Shown here: piece by piece, positions 7,793 through 46,371 of the stretch | Position numbering within the stretch: the stretch's first letter is position 1 | Layout of the letters: each line of letters opens with the position of its first letter | NCBI GenBank assembly: GCA_934675205.1 | Contig: CAKUPQ010000001.1 | Location: forward strand, 496,001 to 560,000 | Length of the DNA: 64,000 nt | Direction of reading: 5' to 3' | Source of the DNA: an uncultured Flavobacteriaceae bacterium | GTDB lineage: Bacteria > Bacteroidota > Bacteroidia > Flavobacteriales > Flavobacteriaceae | The notes under the pieces: model-generated | The model's database searches: none | The model's input: the letters and a program-made list of their open reading frames with translations, nothing else | What the model was told of the DNA's origin: nothing | Position numbers and translations under genes: made by a program

Positions 7793-10700
7793 TTAATCTA
7801 ATAATTCTTCCATTTCCGAATGTTCAGGCATTGAATTTAACAGAGAATCCAACAGAAGTTCCTCATCAGGAATTTCGTCAGACGGTTCGTCTTCTGTACC
7901 TAATCGTGCTTTGAATTTCGCATTGTATTGGTTGAATGTCGGATAACTCTTTTCGTACAATTCCAAGTCGTTGTGGTCTTTCATAATCAACAAAAGATTG
8001 CGGTAATAAGCTGTTGCCCGATATACCTCTCCAAGAAAGGCATTTTGCTCTCTTAAATCCAAACTTCCGTAGAAAGTAAGCTCCTCCTGATATTTTTTGG
8101 ATATTTTATCAATAAGTTCACGAGCTTTTTCTTTTTCTCCTACTCTGTAATAAACCCCGATAAAAGGTTCTGTCATTTCGTATAATCCGTAATGCTCAAG
8201 AGGGAAATGTGTCATCGTTAAATCGGCTATGTTTTTGGCTTTTTCGGGTTTTCCTTCTGCAACCAAAGTCTCTGCTAATCTTCCGAAATACATTCTGTAA
8301 CTGAATACGTTTCTTCGGGTTTCCACATCGTGATAGATGTTATCACTTCCACTCGCTCCGAAAAACCAACCTTTTCGGTTTCCTCCTTCATACTCTTTGG
8401 TCATAATTTTGTCATACATCTTTTCTGTATCGAGATACCCCATATCAACACTTCCTCCTTTTCGGTCATACGCAGTTTTTACAGGAACAAGTTTGTAAAT
8501 TACTCCGTCAAGTTCCATATAATCTTTTAGCCATAAATAATCTTCATCGTCCCAAGCTCCGGGTGAAAAATAAATAGGACGCTCCCAATTATTATTAGCA
8601 ATAATATCAAGCATTATGATTCTGTTTATGTATAATAAACCTTTGTCTATGTCAAGACTCATCGTATCTACAATTTGGTCTGCATATTTCTCGGAAACGA
8701 TTCCGTTTTTCAGCACAGCCTCCTTATCTACAGGAATACTTATTTTTCGGGTTGGGAACGTATGTAATTTAAACCCGTTTGGCTGGAGTTTATATGTTCT
8801 TGGGTCGTCCAAATGGATAAATTCCAAAAACTGATTTATCGGAAGCCTTTGGTCTGTAACAGGACTGTAAATTACTCCGTCTAACTTTCCTCCTGAATAC
8901 TGGTCGTGGCTGAACGAAATTTTCAATCCGTCCGACAAATACGTTTTTTGTTTCATTTGGTCAATGTACCAATCCGTCTGTAAAAGAGCCGTACAAACCA
9001 CTTTAACATCGGTTCTGTATCCCTCAACTTCCTGCAGATACCAAAGCGGAAACGTATCATTATCTCCAATGGTAAAAATTATAGCATTTTCTTCTAAAGA
9101 ATCCATATAGGCTTTAGCATTTACCAAAGCGGTATCTTTTCCGGAACGGTCGTGGTCGTCCCAATTTTGAGAAGCCATCAAAACAGGAACTGCCAACAAC
9201 GAAAGAGTCGTTACTCCATAAACAACAACTTTTGATTGTAATTTTGAACTAATTAATTCATAAATAGCATACACCCCGAAAGCAATCCACATCGCAAAAA
9301 CAAAGAAAGCTCCGACTACCGCATAATCTCTTTCTCTCGGTTCAAAAGGGCTTTCGTTCAAAAACACTTTTAGAGCCAATCCCATAAACAGGAACAAAAC
9401 CAACAATACATAAAAACTTTTCCAATCTTTTTTTGCGTGATATACAAGTCCGATAAGAGCAAACAAAAACGGAATCATAAAATAGGCATTCCTTGCTTTG
9501 TTGTTCTTCATATCAGAGGTTAATTCGCTTTGATTTCCTAACCTCCATTCGTCAATAAAGTTTATTCCGCTTATCCAGTTTCCGTTTAGTTTGTCGCCTT
9601 TTCCTTGAATATCATTCTGACGACCTGCAAAATTCCACATCAAATACCTTCCGAACATATATCCGAACTGATAATCAATCATAAACTGAATATTTTGAGC
9701 TAAAGACGGCTTTTCAACAATTACCACTTCTCCTAAATTCGATAAAAACTGATGATAGTCCTCTTCATCTACTCGTCCCGAATTATAAGCTGATTTAAAC
9801 TGATTGATGTTTTCCTGAACATTCTCACGCAACATTTGGGTTACCTCAAAAAATTCTTCCTCCGAAAGTGAATCAAGGTCAATTCCTAAATCCAAATTAT
9901 ACACATCATCGGTAAAATCGTATTTAGGATTTATCCTAAAATCAGGAACTCCTGTGTATTTCATATAGTTTATGACATGCGGAGTTCTGGTACTACGCAT
10001 TCTCGGAAGAAAAGCCTTGTGAGTGTCATCTAAATTCTGAACGGAATTTTTATACTGATTTACAATGATGTATTTTCCTGTTTTATAATCTCTTTCATAG
10101 TTCGGTTTTGAATCCACATACGGACGGTCAGGGTCTAAACCTGCATATTTTTCGGTATATAATTCTCCGTAAAATGTTTTTTGTTCTCCATATTGCTCCC
10201 GGTTGTAATAAGCCAAAAGCTCGGTTGCATCAGTCGGAGCATTTTCGTTAATCGGAGGATTTGCATTGGCACGAATCGGCAACATCAACCAAGACGAAAA
10301 TCCGATAAACACAAACAAAATACACAATATAAACGTGTTTGCTTTCGCATAATTTTTCTTTTTGGTGTATTGCAATCCGAGTACGAAAAAAGCAATAACC
10401 AAAAGTGAGGCAAAAATAGTTCCCGAATTAAAAGGCAATCCGATAGTATTAACCATAAAGATTTCCGTTTTGGCAAAGAAAGTCATCGTATAAGGCAACA
10501 AAAACGCAAATACAAAGAACAAAACAGTCACAACCGCAATATTGGCAAGGATAAAGTTCTTAATTGTTACTTCTTTATAATGCTTGAAATAATACAACAA
10601 TCCGATAGACGGAATCGTAAGCAAAGCCATAAAATGCACTCCAAACGACAATCCGACAAACATCGAAATAGCTAAAAGCCATTTGTTTCCACCCGGTTTA

Positions 10701-13959: not shown

Positions 13960-13975
13960 TGTTTCACGTGAAACA
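13960..13975. promoter_or_regulatory. parS: parS-type centromere site
   Basis: TGTTTCACGTGAAACA is a perfect 16-bp palindrome identical to the widely conserved ParB-binding consensus. It is one of four such palindromes within 3.7 kb. Confidence 0.8.
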
Positions 13976-13981
13976 ACCGCT

Positions 13982-14111
13982 CTGTCATTGCGAGGAACGA
14001 AGCAATCTCAACTATTAGTTTTAGATTGCTTCACTCCACTTCGTTACGTTCGCAATGACGTTAAGTGAGATTGCCACGTCATTTCGCTACGCTACATTCC
14101 TCGCAATGACG
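13982..14111. repeat. REP-like repeat, long copy left of the GIY-YIG gene
   Basis: The unit runs GTCATTGCGAGGAACGAAG, CAATCT, spacer, AGATTGCTTC and GTTCGCAATGAC, making an imperfect hairpin. It then adds a third arm ending CATTCCTCGCAATGACG. The copy at 14461-14590 is nearly identical and in the same orientation. Confidence 0.85.
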
Positions 14112-14117
14112 AAATGC

Positions 14118-14429
14118 TTAATATCCTAATTCCATTATATCTTTAATATCATCATATAAATCATTCCATTCGGGATTTATACTGTTTATCAACGCTTCTT
14201 TTTTAGCTCTCGAACCTGCTTTTATTTGTTTTTCTCTATAAATTGCATCTCCTATTTCCTGAAAAGCCTCCCAATAAACCAATTTATACAACTTATACCG
14301 AGAAGTAAAACTCTGCTGATACCTGCCCTCTCTATGCTCCAAAATCCTTTGAGGTAAATTAGACGTTACTCCTACATACAATGTGGTGTTATTCGCATTT
14401 GTCATTATGTAAATAAAACCTGACTTCAT
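14118..14429 (-). CDS. GIY-YIG family single-domain nuclease
   Basis: This 103-aa protein is a stand-alone GIY-YIG domain. The IYIM (6-9) and LYVG (17-20) strands replace GIY and YIG, followed by Arg28, His32, a Glu near residue 55 and the typical tail AIYREKQIKAGSRAKKEALI...NPEW. It is not UvrC, which is about six times longer with HhH and UvrBC domains. The gene is bracketed by two direct REP-like repeats of about 130 bp, 6 bp and 32 bp from its ends. A role in spreading or processing those repeats is an inference. The cellular role of these short nucleases is unclear. Confidence 0.85.
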   Translation of the reverse strand: MKSGFIYIMTNANNTTLYVGVTSNLPQRILEHREGRYQQSFTSRYKLYKLVYWEAFQEIGDAIYREKQIKAGSRAKKEALINSINPEWNDLYDDIKDIMELGY

Positions 14430-14460
14430 TGTTTTTATTATTTATTCCGTATTACCCACT

Positions 14461-14590
14461 CTGTCATTGCGAGGAACGAAGCAATCTCAATGATTATTTT
14501 AGATTGCTTCACTTCGTTTCTCTACGTTCGCAATGACGTTAAGTGAGATTACCACATCATTCCGCTACGCTACATTCCTCACAATGACAG
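14461..14590. repeat. REP-like repeat, long copy right of the GIY-YIG gene
   Basis: This has the same structure and orientation as 13982-14111, with a few substitutions in the third arm (CCTCACAATGACAG). It ends 12 bp before the mnmG stop codon. Confidence 0.85.
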
Positions 14591-14601
14591 ACACACGTTT
14601 T

Positions 14602-16470
14602 CTAACGTCCCATATAAATCAAAAGCACCGAAATATCAGCTGGAGAAATCCCACTTATTCTTGAGGCTTGAGAAATAGTTACAGGACGAATCTTTTTTAG
14701 TTTCTCACGAGCTTCGTACGATAGGGATTTCACTTTATCATAATCGAAGTTTTCAGGGATTTTAGCTTCTTCTAAACGAATTAGTTTATCTGCATTGTTC
14801 TTTTCCTTTTCGATATATCCCGAATATTTAACCTGTATTTCGGCTTGTTCTAAAACCTCCTGATCAAAGTTGTTTTCGGTTACATATTCTTTTACTTTTT
14901 CAAATTTCAGCATATCCTGCAAATCCAACTGCGGACGGGAAAATACCTTAAACATCTTATCAGGCTGAACAATCGGTGCAGAGCCTTTTTCCTCCAAAAT
15001 CGGGTTTGCCTCCTCTACTTTTACGCTTGTTTCCCTGAAAAACTGAACTAAATCCTCCGATTCTTTCAGCTTTTTTTCCATTTTGCGAAGCCTGTCCTCT
15101 TTTGCCAAACCTATTTCGTAGCTCAAAGGTGTAAGCCTAAAATCTGCATTATCCTGTCTTAAAAGCGTTCTGTATTCAGCCCTCGAAGTAAACATTCGAT
15201 AGGGTTCTTCCGTTCCTTTAGTAATCAAATCATCTATCAGAACTCCGATATATGCCTCGTCCCTTTTCAAAATAAAAGGCTCTTTTTCCTGCACTTTCAG
15301 ACTTGCATTGATTCCTGCCATAAGCCCTTGAGCTCCTGCCTCCTCATAACCTGTCGTTCCGTTTATCTGTCCTGCAAAAAACAATCCCTCTACCAATTTC
15401 GTTTCGAGGGTATGCTTTAACTGCGTAGGTGGAAAATAATCGTACTCAATCGCATAACCTGCTCTGAAAAACTTCACATTCTCAAATCCCTCCACACTCC
15501 GTAAAGCCTTAAACTGCACATCTTCGGGCAATGAAGTCGAAAATCCGTTTACGTAAACCTCAACCGTATTCCAACCCTCCGGCTCAACGAAAATCTGATG
15601 TCTTTCCTTGTCTGCAAAACGATTGATTTTATCCTCAATAGACGGACAATATCTTGGTCCGATACTCTTAATTCTTCCGTTAAACATAGGGGAACGGTCA
15701 AATCCCTCACGCAACAAATTATGCACCAACTCCGAAGTATAAGTCATATAACAACTGCGTTGCTCTTTGAGTGGTCTGGTACTATCCAAATACGAAAATT
15801 TAGACGGGTTTTCATCTCCTGCCTGTTCTATCATCTTGGAATAATCAAGCGAACGTCCGTCAACTCTGGGAGGAGTTCCCGTTTTCATTCTTCCCGATTC
15901 AAAGCCTAATTTTACCAAATCTTCGGTAATTCCGTATGAAGCTCCCTCTCCTGCTCTACCTCCTCCGAATTGTTTTTCTCCAATATGAATCAATCCGTTT
16001 AAGAAAGTTCCATTAGTTAAAACTACTGTTTTTGCTTTGATTTCGATTCCTAAACTTGTAACAATTCCTGTTACTTTTCCGTTTTCGACCGTAATGCCTT
16101 TTACCATTTCCTGATAGAAATCCAAGTTAGGTGTCTGCTCCAACATCAACCTCCACTCCTCTGCAAAACGCATTCTGTCACTCTGCACCCTCGGACTCCA
16201 CATTGCAGGTCCTTTGGATTTGTTCAACATTCGGAACTGAATAGCCGTTTTATCCGAAACAATTCCCGAATAACCTCCCAAAGCATCAATTTCCCGAACA
16301 ATCTGCCCTTTTGCAATTCCTCCCATTGCAGGATTACAGCTCATTTGAGCTATGTTCTGCAAACTCATTGTTATCAGCAACGTCTTACAACCCATATTGG
16401 CAGACGAGGCAGACGCCTCCGAACCTGCGTGCCCTCCTCCTACTACTATTACATCGTATTCACTAAACAT
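14602..16470 (-). CDS. mnmG: tRNA uridine-5-carboxymethylaminomethyl modification enzyme MnmG
   Basis: MnmG (GidA) works with MnmE to install the carboxymethylaminomethyl group at U34 of certain tRNAs. The 622-aa length is normal. The FAD-binding glycine motif GGGHAGSEASASSANMG lies at about 11-27. The family signatures NPAMGGIAKGQIVREIDALGG (about 46-66) and GQINGTTGYEEAGAQG (about 368-383) are present, and the C-terminal helical domain (about 540-622) is complete. mnmG is close to the replication origin in many bacteria, which fits the parS sites around it. The region upstream carries a parS-type site and a REP-like hairpin. Confidence 0.97.
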   Translation of the reverse strand: MFSEYDVIVVGGGHAGSEASASSANMGCKTLLITMSLQNIAQMSCNPAMGGIAKGQIVREIDALGGYSGIVSDKTAIQFRMLNKSKGPAMWSPRVQSDRMRFAEEWRLMLEQTPNLDFYQEMVKGITVENGKVTGIVTSLGIEIKAKTVVLTNGTFLNGLIHIGEKQFGGGRAGEGASYGITEDLVKLGFESGRMKTGTPPRVDGRSLDYSKMIEQAGDENPSKFSYLDSTRPLKEQRSCYMTYTSELVHNLLREGFDRSPMFNGRIKSIGPRYCPSIEDKINRFADKERHQIFVEPEGWNTVEVYVNGFSTSLPEDVQFKALRSVEGFENVKFFRAGYAIEYDYFPPTQLKHTLETKLVEGLFFAGQINGTTGYEEAGAQGLMAGINASLKVQEKEPFILKRDEAYIGVLIDDLITKGTEEPYRMFTSRAEYRTLLRQDNADFRLTPLSYEIGLAKEDRLRKMEKKLKESEDLVQFFRETSVKVEEANPILEEKGSAPIVQPDKMFKVFSRPQLDLQDMLKFEKVKEYVTENNFDQEVLEQAEIQVKYSGYIEKEKNNADKLIRLEEAKIPENFDYDKVKSLSYEAREKLKKIRPVTISQASRISGISPADISVLLIYMGR

Positions 16471-16515
16471 TGTTTCGTTTGTTATTTTAAATTTTGAATG
16501 ATGAATTTTAAATTG

Positions 16516-16531
16516 TGTTCCACGTGGAACT
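16516..16531. promoter_or_regulatory. parS: parS-like palindrome upstream of mnmG
   Basis: TGTTCCACGTGGAACT differs from a perfect palindrome only at the last base. It keeps the CACGTG core and the GTT/AAC arms of the ParB consensus. It lies 46 bp upstream of the mnmG start codon. Confidence 0.7.
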
Positions 16532-16552
16532 TTTATTTTTTATTATAGATTC

Positions 16553-16622
16553 TGTCATTGCGAGGAACGAAGCAATCTTAAAATTAGATTGCTTCACTTC
16601 GTTGCTCTACGTTCGCAATGAC
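16553..16622. repeat. REP-like hairpin upstream of mnmG
   Basis: GTCATTGCGAGGAACGAAG and CAATCT are followed by a short spacer and the complementary AGATTGCTTC and GTTCGCAATGAC arms. This is the two-arm version of the long repeat. Confidence 0.85.
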
Positions 16623-16662
16623 AAAAAGTTTTAAAAATAAAAAAACCGCTTGTTAGTAGTTT

Positions 16663-16920
16663 TTACTTTTCGTTTAAATAATCCTGCCAAATTTCTGCCC
16701 ATTCATCTCTATATGCACAAGCGGAATCATAAGAAGAATATTCAACTTCTGTTATATCGTTACATTCCTGCTTTTCAAATTCGTCTGTTTCTGGGTTAGA
16801 AATATAGTCAAAACGTGTTTTATGTTCAATAGTTAAAATATTTTTTTTGACTTTAAAAAATTTTATTGTTTCTAAATTTAGCGTTACGCTTCCGTGAGTT
16901 ACGACTTTTAATGAATTCAT
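16663..16920 (-). CDS. Hypothetical protein, 85 aa
   Basis: This small acidic protein has no signal or membrane segment. The N-terminus (NSLKVVTHGSVTLNLETIKF) looks beta-rich and the C-terminus is a helix rich in Trp and aromatic residues (YRDEWAEIWQDYL). No family is recognised. It starts 4 bp after the stop of the uracil-glycosylase-like gene, so the two are probably co-transcribed. The pair sits between mnmG and ybeY, with repeats and parS-type sites on both sides, and may be an accessory insertion. Confidence 0.6.
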   Translation of the reverse strand: MNSLKVVTHGSVTLNLETIKFFKVKKNILTIEHKTRFDYISNPETDEFEKQECNDITEVEYSSYDSACAYRDEWAEIWQDYLNEK

Positions 16921-16924
16921 AATT

Positions 16925-17515
16925 TTATTTAAGTTTTTTGATTTCTGAAATTAGTTGTTCTGCTACTTTTTTGATTTCTTCCTCCTTTACCAATTTTAAA
17001 TGTTTAGTCTTACAAATAACCATATTTTTAAACATTTCAGGTTCTGAAGCTAACTTTTTTTCTATGAATTTAGTCGGTTTTCTACCGTGAATAAATAATG
17101 CTTTTGGCTTAATTGTATTAAGTAAAAAAGAAAAAATTTCAGTATTCTTATCACTTTTTTTCAATGAATTTTCATCTGGTGTAGCCACACTATAAACATT
17201 AGTTTCTAAACATTTGAAATCACCAAAAATTTCATTAACAAGCATTTCTATTTTTTTGCGTGTCGGACTGATTTCTTTTTTACCTTGTGCTTTTCTTTCA
17301 TTTTTATATTCTTCAAACCATCTTGCTTTATCAAACTTATTTCCATTCCAATAATCAAGAAAATTCGTATCAGAGGAAGTTGCAGGATTTATACCAATAA
17401 TGAATATTTCACATTCAAGCGGATAACCGTCACAAATAAAAGGTCTTAAATTAGGAAATTTTTCGATTCGCTTTTGTAATTCACTTTTAAATTCAGAATT
17501 TGACATATTTATCAT
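16925..17515 (-). CDS. Uracil-DNA-glycosylase-superfamily-like protein
   Basis: This 196-aa protein has a motif IFIIGINPATSS (about 32-43) that resembles the water-activating GxNP loop of MUG/TDG-type glycosylases. A later ALFIHGRKPT (about 145-154) could supply the second catalytic loop. The fold assignment is tentative, and a DNA-repair role is inferred only from these loops. A second ATG at 17506 (MSNSEF) is an equally plausible start; no clear ribosome-binding site decides. The neighbour downstream is a small hypothetical gene. Confidence 0.55.
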   Translation of the reverse strand: MINMSNSEFKSELQKRIEKFPNLRPFICDGYPLECEIFIIGINPATSSDTNFLDYWNGNKFDKARWFEEYKNERKAQGKKEISPTRKKIEMLVNEIFGDFKCLETNVYSVATPDENSLKKSDKNTEIFSFLLNTIKPKALFIHGRKPTKFIEKKLASEPEMFKNMVICKTKHLKLVKEEEIKKVAEQLISEIKKLK

Positions 17516-17562
17516 TAATTTTATTATCTAATAAAACAAATCTACAAAAACATTTTAACAAA

Positions 17563-17587
17563 AGATTGCTTCGTTCCTCGCAATGAC
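17563..17587. repeat. REP-like repeat, half copy
   Basis: AGATTGCTTCGTTCCTCGCAATGAC without its partner arm lies between the glycosylase-like gene and ybeY. Confidence 0.8.
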
Positions 17588-17618
17588 AGGCACACACCTC
17601 TTAATAACTATACCTAAA

Positions 17619-17634
17619 AGTTCCACGTGGAACA
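17619..17634. promoter_or_regulatory. parS: parS-like palindrome
   Basis: AGTTCCACGTGGAACA matches the ParB-site pattern except at its first base. It lies 33 bp beyond the ybeY stop codon. Confidence 0.7.
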
Positions 17635-17666
17635 TTCAAAATTTAAAATTCATCATTCAAAATAAT

Positions 17667-18086
17667 TCACTGTTCCACGTGGAACATCTTTATTTTTTCG
17701 TCTTCTTTGGAACGCATCAGTTTAGAGTCTTCTTCGGTTTTGTCTTTGTAACCACAGTAGTGTAAAACTCCGTGAGCCATAACCCTACGTAGCTCCTCCT
17801 CAAACGAAACTCCGAAATCCTGTGCATTATCTTTAACTCTTTCTATAGAAATAAATATATCTCCAGAAATAAGGTTTCCGATAGTATAATCAAACGAAAT
17901 TATATCCGTAAGAGTTTGATGTTCAAGATATTGAACGTTAATTTCATACAAATAATCATCATCACAAAAGATGTAATTTATCTCTCCTTCTTCTTTATCC
18001 TCCGACTCGATAACTTCTGTTAGCCAATCTTCGTATCTTTCTTCATTATCTAACTGAAAATCAGTTTCGTAGTTGAATAATATCAT
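17667..18086 (-). CDS. ybeY: Endoribonuclease YbeY
   Basis: YbeY is a metal-dependent RNase involved in 16S rRNA maturation and ribosome quality control. The 139-aa length is normal. The signature is HGVLHYCGYKD near residue 110, where the canonical form is HGxLHxxGYDH. Two metal-binding His are present, but the third is Asp here. Similar changes may be common in Bacteroidota, so activity is not excluded. The C-terminal residues MFHVEQ are encoded by a parS-type palindrome (17671-17686). Confidence 0.93.
   Translation of the reverse strand: MILFNYETDFQLDNEERYEDWLTEVIESEDKEEGEINYIFCDDDYLYEINVQYLEHQTLTDIISFDYTIGNLISGDIFISIERVKDNAQDFGVSFEEELRRVMAHGVLHYCGYKDKTEEDSKLMRSKEDEKIKMFHVEQ
17671..17686. 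promoter_or_regulatory. parS: parS-type palindrome inside the 3' end of ybeY
   Basis: TGTTCCACGTGGAACA is a perfect 16-bp palindrome. It overlaps the last codons of ybeY and is 52 bp from the site at 17619. Confidence 0.75.
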
Positions 18087-18097
18087 ATCTTTTTTTT

Positions 18098-18263
18098 AGC
18101 CACGGATTAAAGGATTTTACGGATTTATGTTTCTTTTTAAATCTCTCGCAAAGTCGCAAATTTTTTCTCTAAAAAATATATTAAACTATTATAATTGAAA
18201 AATCCTTTTAATCCTTTAATCCGTGGCAAAAATAATTACTTAATTTCTTTGCGACTTTGCGAG
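18098..18263. repeat. Interleaved inverted repeats between ybeY and the DUF4175 gene
   Basis: Arm A (18098-18116, AGCCACGGATTAAAGGATT) pairs with A' (18210-18227). Arm B (18145-18160, CTCGCAAAGTCGCAAA) pairs with B' (18248-18263). The order is A-B-A'-B', so both stems cannot form as simple nested hairpins. A related AGCCACGGATTA copy occurs at 23531. The element fills almost the whole gap between the two genes. Confidence 0.7.
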
Positions 18264-18266
18264 AAA

Positions 18267-21200
18267 TCATTTCTTAAAATATTGTTGCACTTTTTGATTA
18301 TAAATCGGGTGCAAAGGTAAGGCATCTCTGTTTAAAATTTCGATACTGTTCAGATATTCTTGTAATTTCGGGTCCAATGGTTTAATCGAATTATTAAACT
18401 CCTTTTTGTTGGTAGTTCCCTCACGCTTGTCATCGTCCCCTTGTTCTCGAATAGCTTTATCTAATTTTAAAAGTTCGTGCTTTAAGTTCTGCATTTTCTG
18501 TAAAACCGTATTGTCAAAACGCTTGTTTAAAAGCTGTTTTTCAATATCCTGCATCTGCTTGTTCGCATTCTGTCCTGCTCCTCCCAAACCTTCTTTTTCC
18601 AAACGTTTCTGCAAAGCATCACGTAACATCTGCTGCTCCTTGTAAATCTCGTACAACATTTCTGCCTCGCCTTCTCCGTCTGTTCCTTCTCCATTCTGAC
18701 CATTTTTTCCGTCTTTGCCTTCTCCGCTTTGTCCTCCTTGCTGTTCGCCTTTTTCTCCGTCATTTCCCTCTCCGTCTTCATTGCCTTTTTCCATTCCGTC
18801 CTTCATTTTTTCCATAAGTTCCTCCTGTTTCTGAATAATATCAGGTAACTGCATTTCTCCCTTTCCTTTGCCTTTTCCGGGACTTGGCATTCCTTCTCCC
18901 TCGCCTTGTCCTTCTCCCTGCATTTGCATCTGCATTTGTTCCTGTACGTTACTCAAAAAATCAGCCAACTTATTGGTAGAAGTAATCGTATATTGCTGGT
19001 GCGAAACTCCTTTCGGAACATTTGTCTCTGCCAATTCCTCTATGGATTTATCTAAATTATAGTGGATTTCGCCTATTTCCTTGTTGATGTCCTCCCCAAT
19101 CATCGGATTTCTGAGTGAAAGAGCAAACAAGCTGTCATCAACGTGTCTGAACTGCGTTTTCAGATTGTGCTGGATTTTCAGGTTGTTAGCAAAAGACGGA
19201 CTTTTTCTGTTCAGCCCTTTGAACTGTTGCATAACGTCCTCCTGCGAAAACGAAAAAGCCAACAAATTATCCAAAATTTGACGTAACATTTTCGCATCTT
19301 CCTGCATCTGCTGTCCCTGCATTTGAGCCATTGCAGATTTCATCTGCTGACTCATCTGTTTCATCTTTTGAGAAGCTCCTTTTTGCTTGGGTTTTGCTCC
19401 TTGTTGGTTCTCTTTTTGAAGCTCGTCTTTAGCTTCTTTCATCTCTTCCTTGACTTTTTCTTCGTCCTTTTTATCCACAGGAACGTCCATCGGATTTTTT
19501 AAATCCTTATTTTCTTTCTTTAAATCCTCAATGTCTTTTTGTAATTTATCGAACTGCTCATTTAATTTTTCTTGTTCTTCCGAAGTGTTGTTTTCTTTTT
19601 TTTCTTCGGATAATTTATCTTGGTCTTTCGATAATTTATCCAAATCAGAAGCTATTTTTTCCATTTTCTTCTGAACGTAAAAACGCTTGGTTAATTCAAC
19701 CAATTGTTCCAAACTCTTTTGTTGGGATTTCGCACTTTGTTGGAATTTTTCCATTTTGTCAAACAATTCTTCTTTCTGAAGTTTGTCTGCTAATTTTTTG
19801 AGTTCCTCCAAAAGTTTTTCGTTCTTTTCGATTTCTTCCTGTGTTTTTTCAAGACGTTCTTCGAGAAGTTCTTTTTGCTTGTCTTCCTGATCCGGATTGA
19901 ATTCCTCTAAATTTTTCTGTAATTTTTCGGAAAACGATTTCATCATTTCCTCCTGTTCCATCTGACGTTTCAAAAAATCATCAATCTTTTTCTGGTCTTT
20001 AAAATCTAAATCCGATTTTTCTTTGTTCATCTGCTTGAGTTTATCCATTTCGGAAAGCTGTTTTTCCTGCGATTTAACCGACTTTGACAAACTATTGATA
20101 TTCTCGGACTGCTGTTTTAAGTTTTCTTCTTGTTTTTCATTTTCTGTAAGTTCTCTATGCGAAAAAACCGAAGATTTCGTGCTTTTGAAATTATGCAGAG
20201 CATCATTATCAAAAACCTCAAAATAATATTCATATTCTACTCCCTGTTCGATTTCTAACCCTTCAGGAAAAGTATAGTGAAAACGGTCAAAAACGCCTTT
20301 GTTTACCGATAAATTATTGAATTTTAAATCTTGTGAATTACTTTTTTTGTAATAAACTACCCTTAATTTCGACAATCCGTAATCATCGGAAACCTCTCCT
20401 ATCAGAATGTTTTTGTCAATTCCCAAGCTGTCGGGAATATTTCCAACTGTAATACTCGGAAAAGCATCTTTGATTACATTGAGTTTATAATGTAATTTTT
20501 CGTGATGTTTTTTATTTTTATTGGAAGTAAGAATTTGATAATCTGTATTTTCAGAAATATTTTTAACAAACGAAAAACCATTATTTTCCTTTGTGAAATT
20601 GGTGGTAATTTCACCATTTGTCCATTCGATATTATCGGTAGTTTGAGCATTTACTTTCCAAATAACCCTTGTTCCCTCTGGAATTACCGCATTTCCCGTT
20701 CCCTTAATCGTTTCGGATTTTCTTCCTAAATAAGACGGAAAAACAAACTGCATTTCAAAATTGGCAATGCGTGGCACTTCCACAACTTCTAAAATCAAAT
20801 CCCAAGACGAAACCTGATTTGCCTGAAGATAAAAATAAGTATTTTTAGTAGGTTTGGTAAAACGATACTGAAATTCCCCTACTCCTACATTTTCTAAATA
20901 ATAGCTTTCGTTTCCTAAAACAATCATTACTTGTTCCGGAATTGCTTTTCCTTGTGTTTTTACATTCAGAACAAAATCTTCTCCTTGATTAACTTTTAGT
21001 TCAGAATTCTGAACTAAAAATTCAAAAGGTGCAGGTGGAGAATATCTTTCGCTATAATTTACAACCCTTGATATACTGTCCGTAATCACATCGGAATTTC
21101 CACTCACAAAAAACAACAGAAACAACAAAATCGGAAGAACAGCTAATGGCAGATACTTGTAACTCTGCTTAAAATCAACTGCACCCGAAAACGGAACAGG

Positions 21201-25499: not shown

Positions 25500-25735
25500 A
25501 AGGGCAAAGATAGGTTTTTTTAGTATTCAGTTTTTCAGTTGTAGTTTTTGGTTTCGTACTTCTGAAAAATTCCCTGCCTAATCGGACACAGATATTCTCT
25601 ATTCTCTTTTTTTTCTATTCTCTTTTTTCTTCTATAAACTATGTGATTTATAAGTAGTTATAATTATTAAATGTTTATAAATTTCTTAATAACTTAATTT
25701 GTTTTTACGAAAAACAGAAACGTATTAGTAATAAA

Positions 25736-25764
25736 TTTGTAAAAAGCTCTTATTTATAACTTTG
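25736..25764 (+). promoter_or_regulatory. Promoter of the secreted SPOR-like protein gene
   Basis: TTTG (25736-25739) and TAACTTTG (25757-25764) with 17 bp between fit the Bacteroidota -33/-7 pattern. The start codon is 17 bp downstream. Confidence 0.6.
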
Positions 25765-25781
25765 ATTAATTTTATGTGATT

Positions 25782-44793: not shown

Positions 44794-46371
<1,578 letters not shown>

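Follow-up and report, generated by a model that had tools for sequence, protein, structure and literature searches.

A putative parS cluster around mnmG in a Flavobacterium-like chromosome and its recurrence at mnmG in Bacteroidota

The stretch of DNA analyzed here, 64,000 nucleotides from an uncultured Flavobacteriaceae bacterium (contig CAKUPQ010000001.1, positions 496,001 to 560,000; referred to as the window), carries four palindromes around the tRNA modification gene mnmG, and the sequence comparisons make it very probable that they constitute a parS cluster, a centromere-like group of putative ParB binding sites, of a Flavobacterium-like chromosome. The palindromes surround mnmG (gidA) (14602 to 16470, minus strand; TIGR00136, 853.8 bits versus a cut-off of 524.85), the conserved address of such sites in a comparison with 80 relatives, and reach into ybeY (17667 to 18086, minus strand; TIGR00043, 105.9 bits versus a cut-off of 45). 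Exact matches to GTTNCACGTGNAAC occur four times in the window (13961 to 13974, 16517 to 16530, 17620 to 17633, and 17672 to 17685), and no further match with one mismatch or fewer was found in the 64 kb. Site 1 (13960 to 13975), on the downstream side of mnmG, is the perfect 16-mer palindrome TGTTTCACGTGAAACA. Site 2 (16516 to 16531; TGTTCCACGTGGAACT) and site 3 (17619 to 17634; AGTTCCACGTGGAACA) are perfect over their inner 14 bases, with the 14-base core of the former beginning 46 nt upstream of the mnmG start codon and the latter lying in the gap between ybeY and mnmG. Site 4 (17671 to 17686; TGTTCCACGTGGAACA), again a perfect 16-mer palindrome, is held by the last codons of ybeY. None of the sites is assigned a strand. 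The four exact inner 14-mers and two perfect 16-mers fit the 16-bp parS palindrome TGTTNCACGTGNAACA, and their confinement to 3.7 kb of the 64-kb window, together with the counts in relatives, shows the clustering at one address that is typical of parS. Exact GTTNCACGTGNAAC was absent from 100 dinucleotide-preserving shuffles of the window, and the expectation from base composition is 0.0023. When up to two mismatches were allowed, the window contained six matches versus 1.91 expected, and since six were also reached by 1 of the 100 shuffles, the signal resides in the exact sites. TGTTTCACGTGAAACA is also the parS consensus used in PMC10197239 (this and the other papers given by PMC number are cited from excerpts of their text). 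An earlier examination of the letters alone (the sequence-only reading) had described the palindromes at 13960, 16516, 17619, and 17671 as sharing one pattern, two of them (13960 and 17671) as perfect 16-mers, one as identical to the conserved ParB site, and one (17672) as encoding MFHVEQ in the 3' coding end of ybeY, all of which is confirmed; its proposal that this is the centromere of the chromosome is supported by the comparison with relatives, in which the sites are kept at mnmG.

The relatives were collected by a scan with MnmG, from which the best 80 loci were retained with up to 10 kb on each side of mnmG where the contig allowed. All 80 loci are labelled Bacteroidota except L001, a metagenome-assembled genome (MAG) labelled Limnohabitans, placed with Flavobacterium by the MnmG tree. 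The 80 loci and the window together contain 177 exact sites, none of which is inside the 1.87-kb mnmG gene or beyond 2.5 kb of it. An exact site is present within 400 bp upstream of mnmG in 70 of the 80 testable loci (79 relatives and the window) and within 400 bp downstream in 61 of 81 (80 relatives and the window), the window itself being among the downstream misses, and equal stretches at nine other offsets gave only 2 matches in 643. Typically, one site precedes mnmG by 20 to 80 bp and another follows it within about 130 bp. Among Cyclobacteriaceae and their kin, both tend to precede the gene. Sites at mnmG are found in Flavobacteriaceae, Weeksellaceae, Cyclobacteriaceae, and other families, with up to eight sites at one mnmG in the largest array. 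Positions directly upstream and downstream of mnmG, as seen in most relatives, are where a regulator could act, and the palindromes could accordingly be imagined as operators of a transcription factor with a CACGTG core that controls mnmG and ybeY, with no centromere role. This is very improbable, however, as the 12 fixed bases of the sequence are those of the parS consensus, arrays reach eight sites at a single gene, and sites downstream of mnmG and, in two reading frames, inside ybeY are not needed by a simple operator.

In the whole genomes of 79 relatives (L060 is omitted, and for the later genomes of one batch the numbers of sites, rather than their places, were compared), 171 of the 193 exact sites fall in the mnmG locus, and in 66 genomes every exact site does. 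The motif is therefore not evenly scattered over these genomes; an even scatter is what the sequence-only reading had named as refuting. The reversed-pattern control gave no match in most genomes and never more than two. Some of the sites outside the mnmG loci do not look like parS (e.g., GTTGCACGTGCAAC), and some are at contig ends. L052, from a Capnocytophaga MAG, has three exact sites within 314 bp elsewhere in the genome (genome G131, contig C169:1273-1586) and none in its 19.7-kb mnmG locus, and the centromere of this lineage seems to have moved away from mnmG; the sites of L076, L078, and L079 are likewise outside the fetched mnmG loci. L073 and L080, which have no exact site, carry a one-mismatch site directly before mnmG. 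A recurrent one-mismatch sequence, (T/C)CTTCCACGTGAAAC, present in 10 loci at 6 to 10 kb past the mnmG start, was considered as a degenerate parS and rejected, as in 10 of 10 cases it encodes the conserved LPRETAGY of an open reading frame (ORF) of about 520 to 560 amino acids.

A phylum-wide sample extends this pattern, with 47 of 49 genomes carrying 1 to 9 exact sites. Distances to mnmG were counted in the 32 genomes with listed places, the remainder being 13 without listed places, two without sites, and G009 and G015, which had already been counted. Among the places listed, a site is at mnmG in 31 of the 32 genomes, 64 of 65 sites are no more than 2 kb from mnmG or inside it, and in 18 genomes the gene has sites on either side.

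The partner proteins of parS are also encoded by the relatives. ParB was above its curated cut-off in 12 of 12 and 22 of 22 genomes searched, amounting to 33 different genomes, and a ParA Walker motif adjoins the ParB gene in all 33. ParB was also found in 11 of 11 further genomes in which only ParB was searched for. Thus, a cognate ParA and ParB are present in the genomes of relatives. The best matches among solved structures are proteins named ParB family protein, Spo0J, and ParB, and then Noc. PMC7383237 names eight parS-contacting ParB residues, seven of which (Q162, G170, K171, R173, N178, G201, and R204) are kept in all 33 genomes, and position 184 is K or R. According to the same paper, R173 with G201 characterizes ParB-type proteins and Q173 with R201 Noc-type proteins, so the 33 relatives have the parS-reading combination and not that of Noc. 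The occurrence of ParB in every genome searched, with parS-type residues in 33 of 33, is a further point against operators of an unrelated transcription factor.

The proteins are encoded far from the sites. From 22 genomes picked by eye for long contigs, five with the loci on different contigs (G078, G092, G093, G112, and G113) were removed, leaving 17 chromosome-scale contigs of the family. The parS-parB distance is 810 to 1464 kb (0.43 to 0.83 of the half-chromosome) and the parS-dnaA distance 830 to 1920 kb (0.41 to 0.99 of the half-chromosome) in 17 of 17. A parAB operon near parS and the origin, a feature that is typical but not strictly defining, is thus not seen in the relatives. The sequence-only reading had suggested looking for parA and parB within about 100 kb, and the window contains neither a parB-like ORF nor an ORF with a ParA motif. 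Such an absence would not refute a centromere, because parB is 0.81 to 1.46 Mb from parS in 17 of 17 relatives, which makes this distance a poor criterion. The statement of the sequence-only reading that mnmG is often origin-proximal fits the data. Cumulative GC skew, computed from 20 samples of 20 kb on each of six chromosomes, reaches its sampled minimum 33 to 281 kb from parS (0.02 to 0.19 of the half-chromosome) and 0.46 to 0.97 of the half-chromosome from dnaA, and mnmG is nearer to the minimum than dnaA in all six, with positions good to about 150 to 200 kb because of the 20 samples per chromosome. A finer scan of 360 kb in Polaribacter sp. BM10 places the skew minimum at 2,470 kb and parS at 2,450 kb, about 20 kb apart. 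Origin proximity is therefore observed in the relatives; in the window, a local minimum is 8 to 12 kb from the sites, which would be weak alone. Location near the skew minimum is also unexplained by operators of a local regulator. These results are in line with the Ori-Finder predictions of oriC at mnmG in Mariniflexile litorale and Algorimicrobium (PMC11278836 and PMC12843772; one figure legend of the former swaps oriC and ter relative to the text). In addition, a study of a 12-strain gut consortium with two Bacteroidetes, based on Hi-C and coverage, reports parS clusters at the origin and an origin that is not always at dnaA (PMC10197239).

Several observations, in addition to the coarse spacing of the skew samples, weigh against the centromere interpretation. 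Of the 79 relatives' genomes, 13 have some or all of their sites elsewhere (11 genomes) or no exact site (2 genomes, L073 and L080), and G187 and G201 of the phylum-wide sample also lack an exact site, although all four have ParB. In the same sample, G172 has one site inside mnmG, and the only site of G191 is on a different contig from mnmG. In the 33 relatives, the S at ParB residue 172 that contacts parS in the Caulobacter protein is replaced by K, N, or D. The relatives share descent, and the counts are therefore not independent trials. The skew of G111 is weak, with its minimum 278 kb away, and the finer curve of Polaribacter sp. BM10 hardly changes between 2.40 and 2.48 Mb. Finally, a search of the window revealed no cluster of DnaA boxes near mnmG.

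The densest 500 bases of the window, at 19267, hold three DnaA boxes with one mismatch or fewer, and the 360 kb around mnmG of Polaribacter sp. BM10 contain at most three one-mismatch boxes per 600 bases. Three or more exact TTATNCACA boxes per 600 bases occur in 3 of 81 loci, L073 (eight), L065 (four), and L074 (three), all 2.5 to 2.7 kb past the mnmG stop, and no more than two were seen in 405 trials with first-order Markov sequences of equal composition. DnaA-box clusters were therefore rejected as direct evidence for an oriC beside mnmG, being present in only 3 of 81 loci, and as all three loci are outside Flavobacteriaceae, they do not place oriC in the window. The eight boxes of L073 are intergenic, about 2.6 kb past the mnmG stop and 4.5 kb past its start, and are likely the oriC of Dyadobacter. 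In the window, a weak candidate for the replication origin is the divergent, very AT-rich intergenic region at 25500 to 25775 (no strand assigned), which is flanked by a DNA polymerase III delta'-like gene on the minus strand and an ORF on the plus strand. The cumulative skew is lowest at 26 kb, and the 200 bases from 25601, with 82.5% AT, are the most AT-rich such stretch of the window. This assignment is tentative because no DnaA-box cluster was found there.

Canonical SMC (TIGR02168) was above the cut-off in only 1 of 21 genomes, in a search that did not extend to MukBEF- or MksBEF-type condensins and in which, for 15 of the 21 genomes, only 20 first-look candidates were scored. The 20 genomes below the cut-off include all 17 chromosome-scale Flavobacteriaceae, and the sole positive genome is suspect because it is the MAG labelled Limnohabitans. 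Among control genomes, 10 of 14 were above the cut-off. This result agrees with PMC10197239, in which neither of the two Bacteroidetes is reported to have a known condensin. A ParB-parS loading platform for SMC-ScpAB would require canonical SMC, and since this was not found in nearly all of the relatives tested, the centromere probably functions either with no ParB-dependent loading of SMC or with a different condensin. It is conceivable, though improbable, that the sites bind ParB mainly for local gene control or origin marking and that segregation is performed by something else. The textbook pathway does look incomplete, as SMC is below the cut-off in 20 of 21 relatives and parAB is unlinked to parS, and a few relatives have no exact site. 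On the other hand, parA adjoins parB in 33 of 33 genomes, and one or two sites kept at one address with few elsewhere are what segregation would select.

If the four palindromes act as a centromere, established knowledge of ParABS systems predicts that ParB, whose gene is about 1 Mb away in the family, would load at the parS sites, with GTTCCACGTGGAAC as the predicted target of the Flavobacterium protein, and that the loaded ParB would slide onto flanking DNA as a cytidine triphosphate (CTP) clamp. ParA would then draw the duplicated origin regions apart, and the loading of SMC by ParB may be absent or done by another complex. A more far-reaching scenario, which we regard as possible but rather doubtful, is that Bacteroidota inherited the two flanks of mnmG as a fixed, ancestral centromere address, that the centromere remained there as parAB and dnaA relocated deep into the arms of the chromosome, with loss of canonical SMC in Flavobacteriaceae at least, and that the bracket of sites may have been selected so that ParB spreading from both sides covers mnmG, tying a tRNA modification gene to origin segregation.

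In Bacillus subtilis and Caulobacter crescentus, parB and dnaA are beside parS. The system described here resembles the ParABS systems of these two bacteria in the palindrome, the ParB family, the position of parA beside parB, and the clustering of the sites near the origin. It differs from them in that parB and dnaA of the family are 0.8 to 1.9 Mb from parS, the sites of the relatives bracket mnmG, and 20 of 21 relatives have no canonical SMC above the curated cut-off. The likeness to Caulobacter ParB includes seven of its eight parS-contacting residues (PMC7383237). The parS clusters located by Hi-C in gut Bacteroidetes (PMC10197239) are similar in having few sites at the origin, an origin not always at dnaA, and no known condensin, but the excerpted text contains no occurrence of mnmG or gidA, whereas the address found here is tied to mnmG in a phylum-wide sample and parAB is unlinked in Flavobacteriaceae. 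The origins described for Mariniflexile litorale and Algorimicrobium are also alike, being at mnmG in agreement with GC skew (PMC11278836 and PMC12843772), and that of M. litorale is at mnmG away from dnaA (PMC11278836). parS is not named in the excerpts of these two papers, in each of which the single match to "pars" belongs to parsimony in the phylogenetics methods. No literature linking parS to mnmG in Bacteroidota was found among open-licence full texts. Both parS itself and the fact that origins in such bacteria are not necessarily at dnaA are already known (PMC10197239, PMC11278836, and PMC12843772). The potentially new elements are that the address at mnmG is fixed across the phylum, that it is distant from parAB and dnaA, and that canonical SMC is lacking around it. 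The address provides a rule for finding the centromere and the probable origin in Bacteroidota genomes, including metagenome contigs, for which mnmG, rather than dnaA or parAB, is the gene to look for. In addition, a ParABS system with a centromere naturally far from its protein genes, in genomes seemingly without canonical SMC, allows one to ask which parts of ParABS need linkage or a condensin.

The window is Flavobacterium-like, as its MnmG falls in a 12-row, mostly Flavobacterium group of the tree with a support of 99. Its spread-out layout is unusual, given that the sites of most relatives are close to mnmG. The gap from ybeY to mnmG is 1197 bp, versus at most 463 bp in 71 of the 73 relatives in which ybeY was found. 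Three additional ORFs, all on the minus strand, are interspersed with the sites, and no homologues of them were found in the mnmG loci of the 80 relatives. A GIY-YIG nuclease domain ORF (14118 to 14429; Pfam PF01541, E value of 1.4e-15) is between mnmG and site 1, and an 85-amino-acid ORF without a Pfam match (16663 to 16920) and a 196-amino-acid ORF without a Pfam or NCBIfam match (16925 to 17515) are between parS sites. Two composite repeats of about 130 nt (repeats D1 to D4) flank the GIY-YIG ORF, resembling a small mobile unit, and all four exact window copies of the 26-mer TGTCATTGCGAGGAACGAAGCAATCT adjoin the extra ORFs (13982 to 14590 and 16552 to 17589). Dispersed copies of the 26-mer occur in 17 of 61 Flavobacterium-group genomes, with at most 26 in each; the 26 copies of G002 include four inverted pairs about 60 bp apart. 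These repetitive extragenic palindromic (REP)-like repeats were rejected as part of the centromere, considering this dispersal and the absence of their 11-base core from the mnmG loci of all 80 relatives. We infer, including the order of events, that lineage-specific insertions spread the sites of the window without destroying the palindromes, the extra ORFs between the sites having stretched a cluster whose palindromes were retained. Such ORFs and dispersed repeats in one stretch could also be taken as traces of a par locus of mobile or plasmid origin inserted next to mnmG. This is hardly credible, as neither parB nor a ParA motif was found in the window, the families with sites at mnmG include Flavobacteriaceae, Weeksellaceae, and Cyclobacteriaceae among others, and the relatives that lack the extra ORFs have the sites nevertheless.

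The parS site within ybeY is shared with many relatives. A phmmer search identified 74 ybeY genes, including that of the window, and an exact parS is embedded in 32 of them. The usual tail of YbeY over the site is MFHVEQ or close to it, with the window protein ending in KMFHVEQ, and in the ybeY genes of L064 and L070 the site is read in another frame (VPRET and VSRET). A centromere site that doubles as codons accounts for the MFHVEQ-like tail of many YbeY proteins. Kordia (L032) has the tail MFHMEQ and L047 the tail LFHMEQ, the site within ybeY having turned into CACATG instead of CACGTG; these CACATG sites lie upstream of mnmG, with three copies in L032 and two in L047. In Flavobacterium sp. 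MC2016-06 (L004), the gap between ybeY and mnmG is partly filled by a 117-bp tandem repeat of about five copies (9315 to 9935), four of which carry TGTTCCACATGGAACA, a one-base parS variant with CACATG.

Between ybeY and the next gene, the window contains a 36-nt inverted repeat (18091 to 18267 overall) with arms at 18091 to 18126 and 18200 to 18235, 73 nt apart, and an additional 20-nt inverted pair at 18141 to 18160 and 18248 to 18267. Farther along, the ORF at 44794 to 46341 encodes ATP synthase alpha/beta domains with a V/A-type C-terminal domain in this Flavobacterium-like genome.

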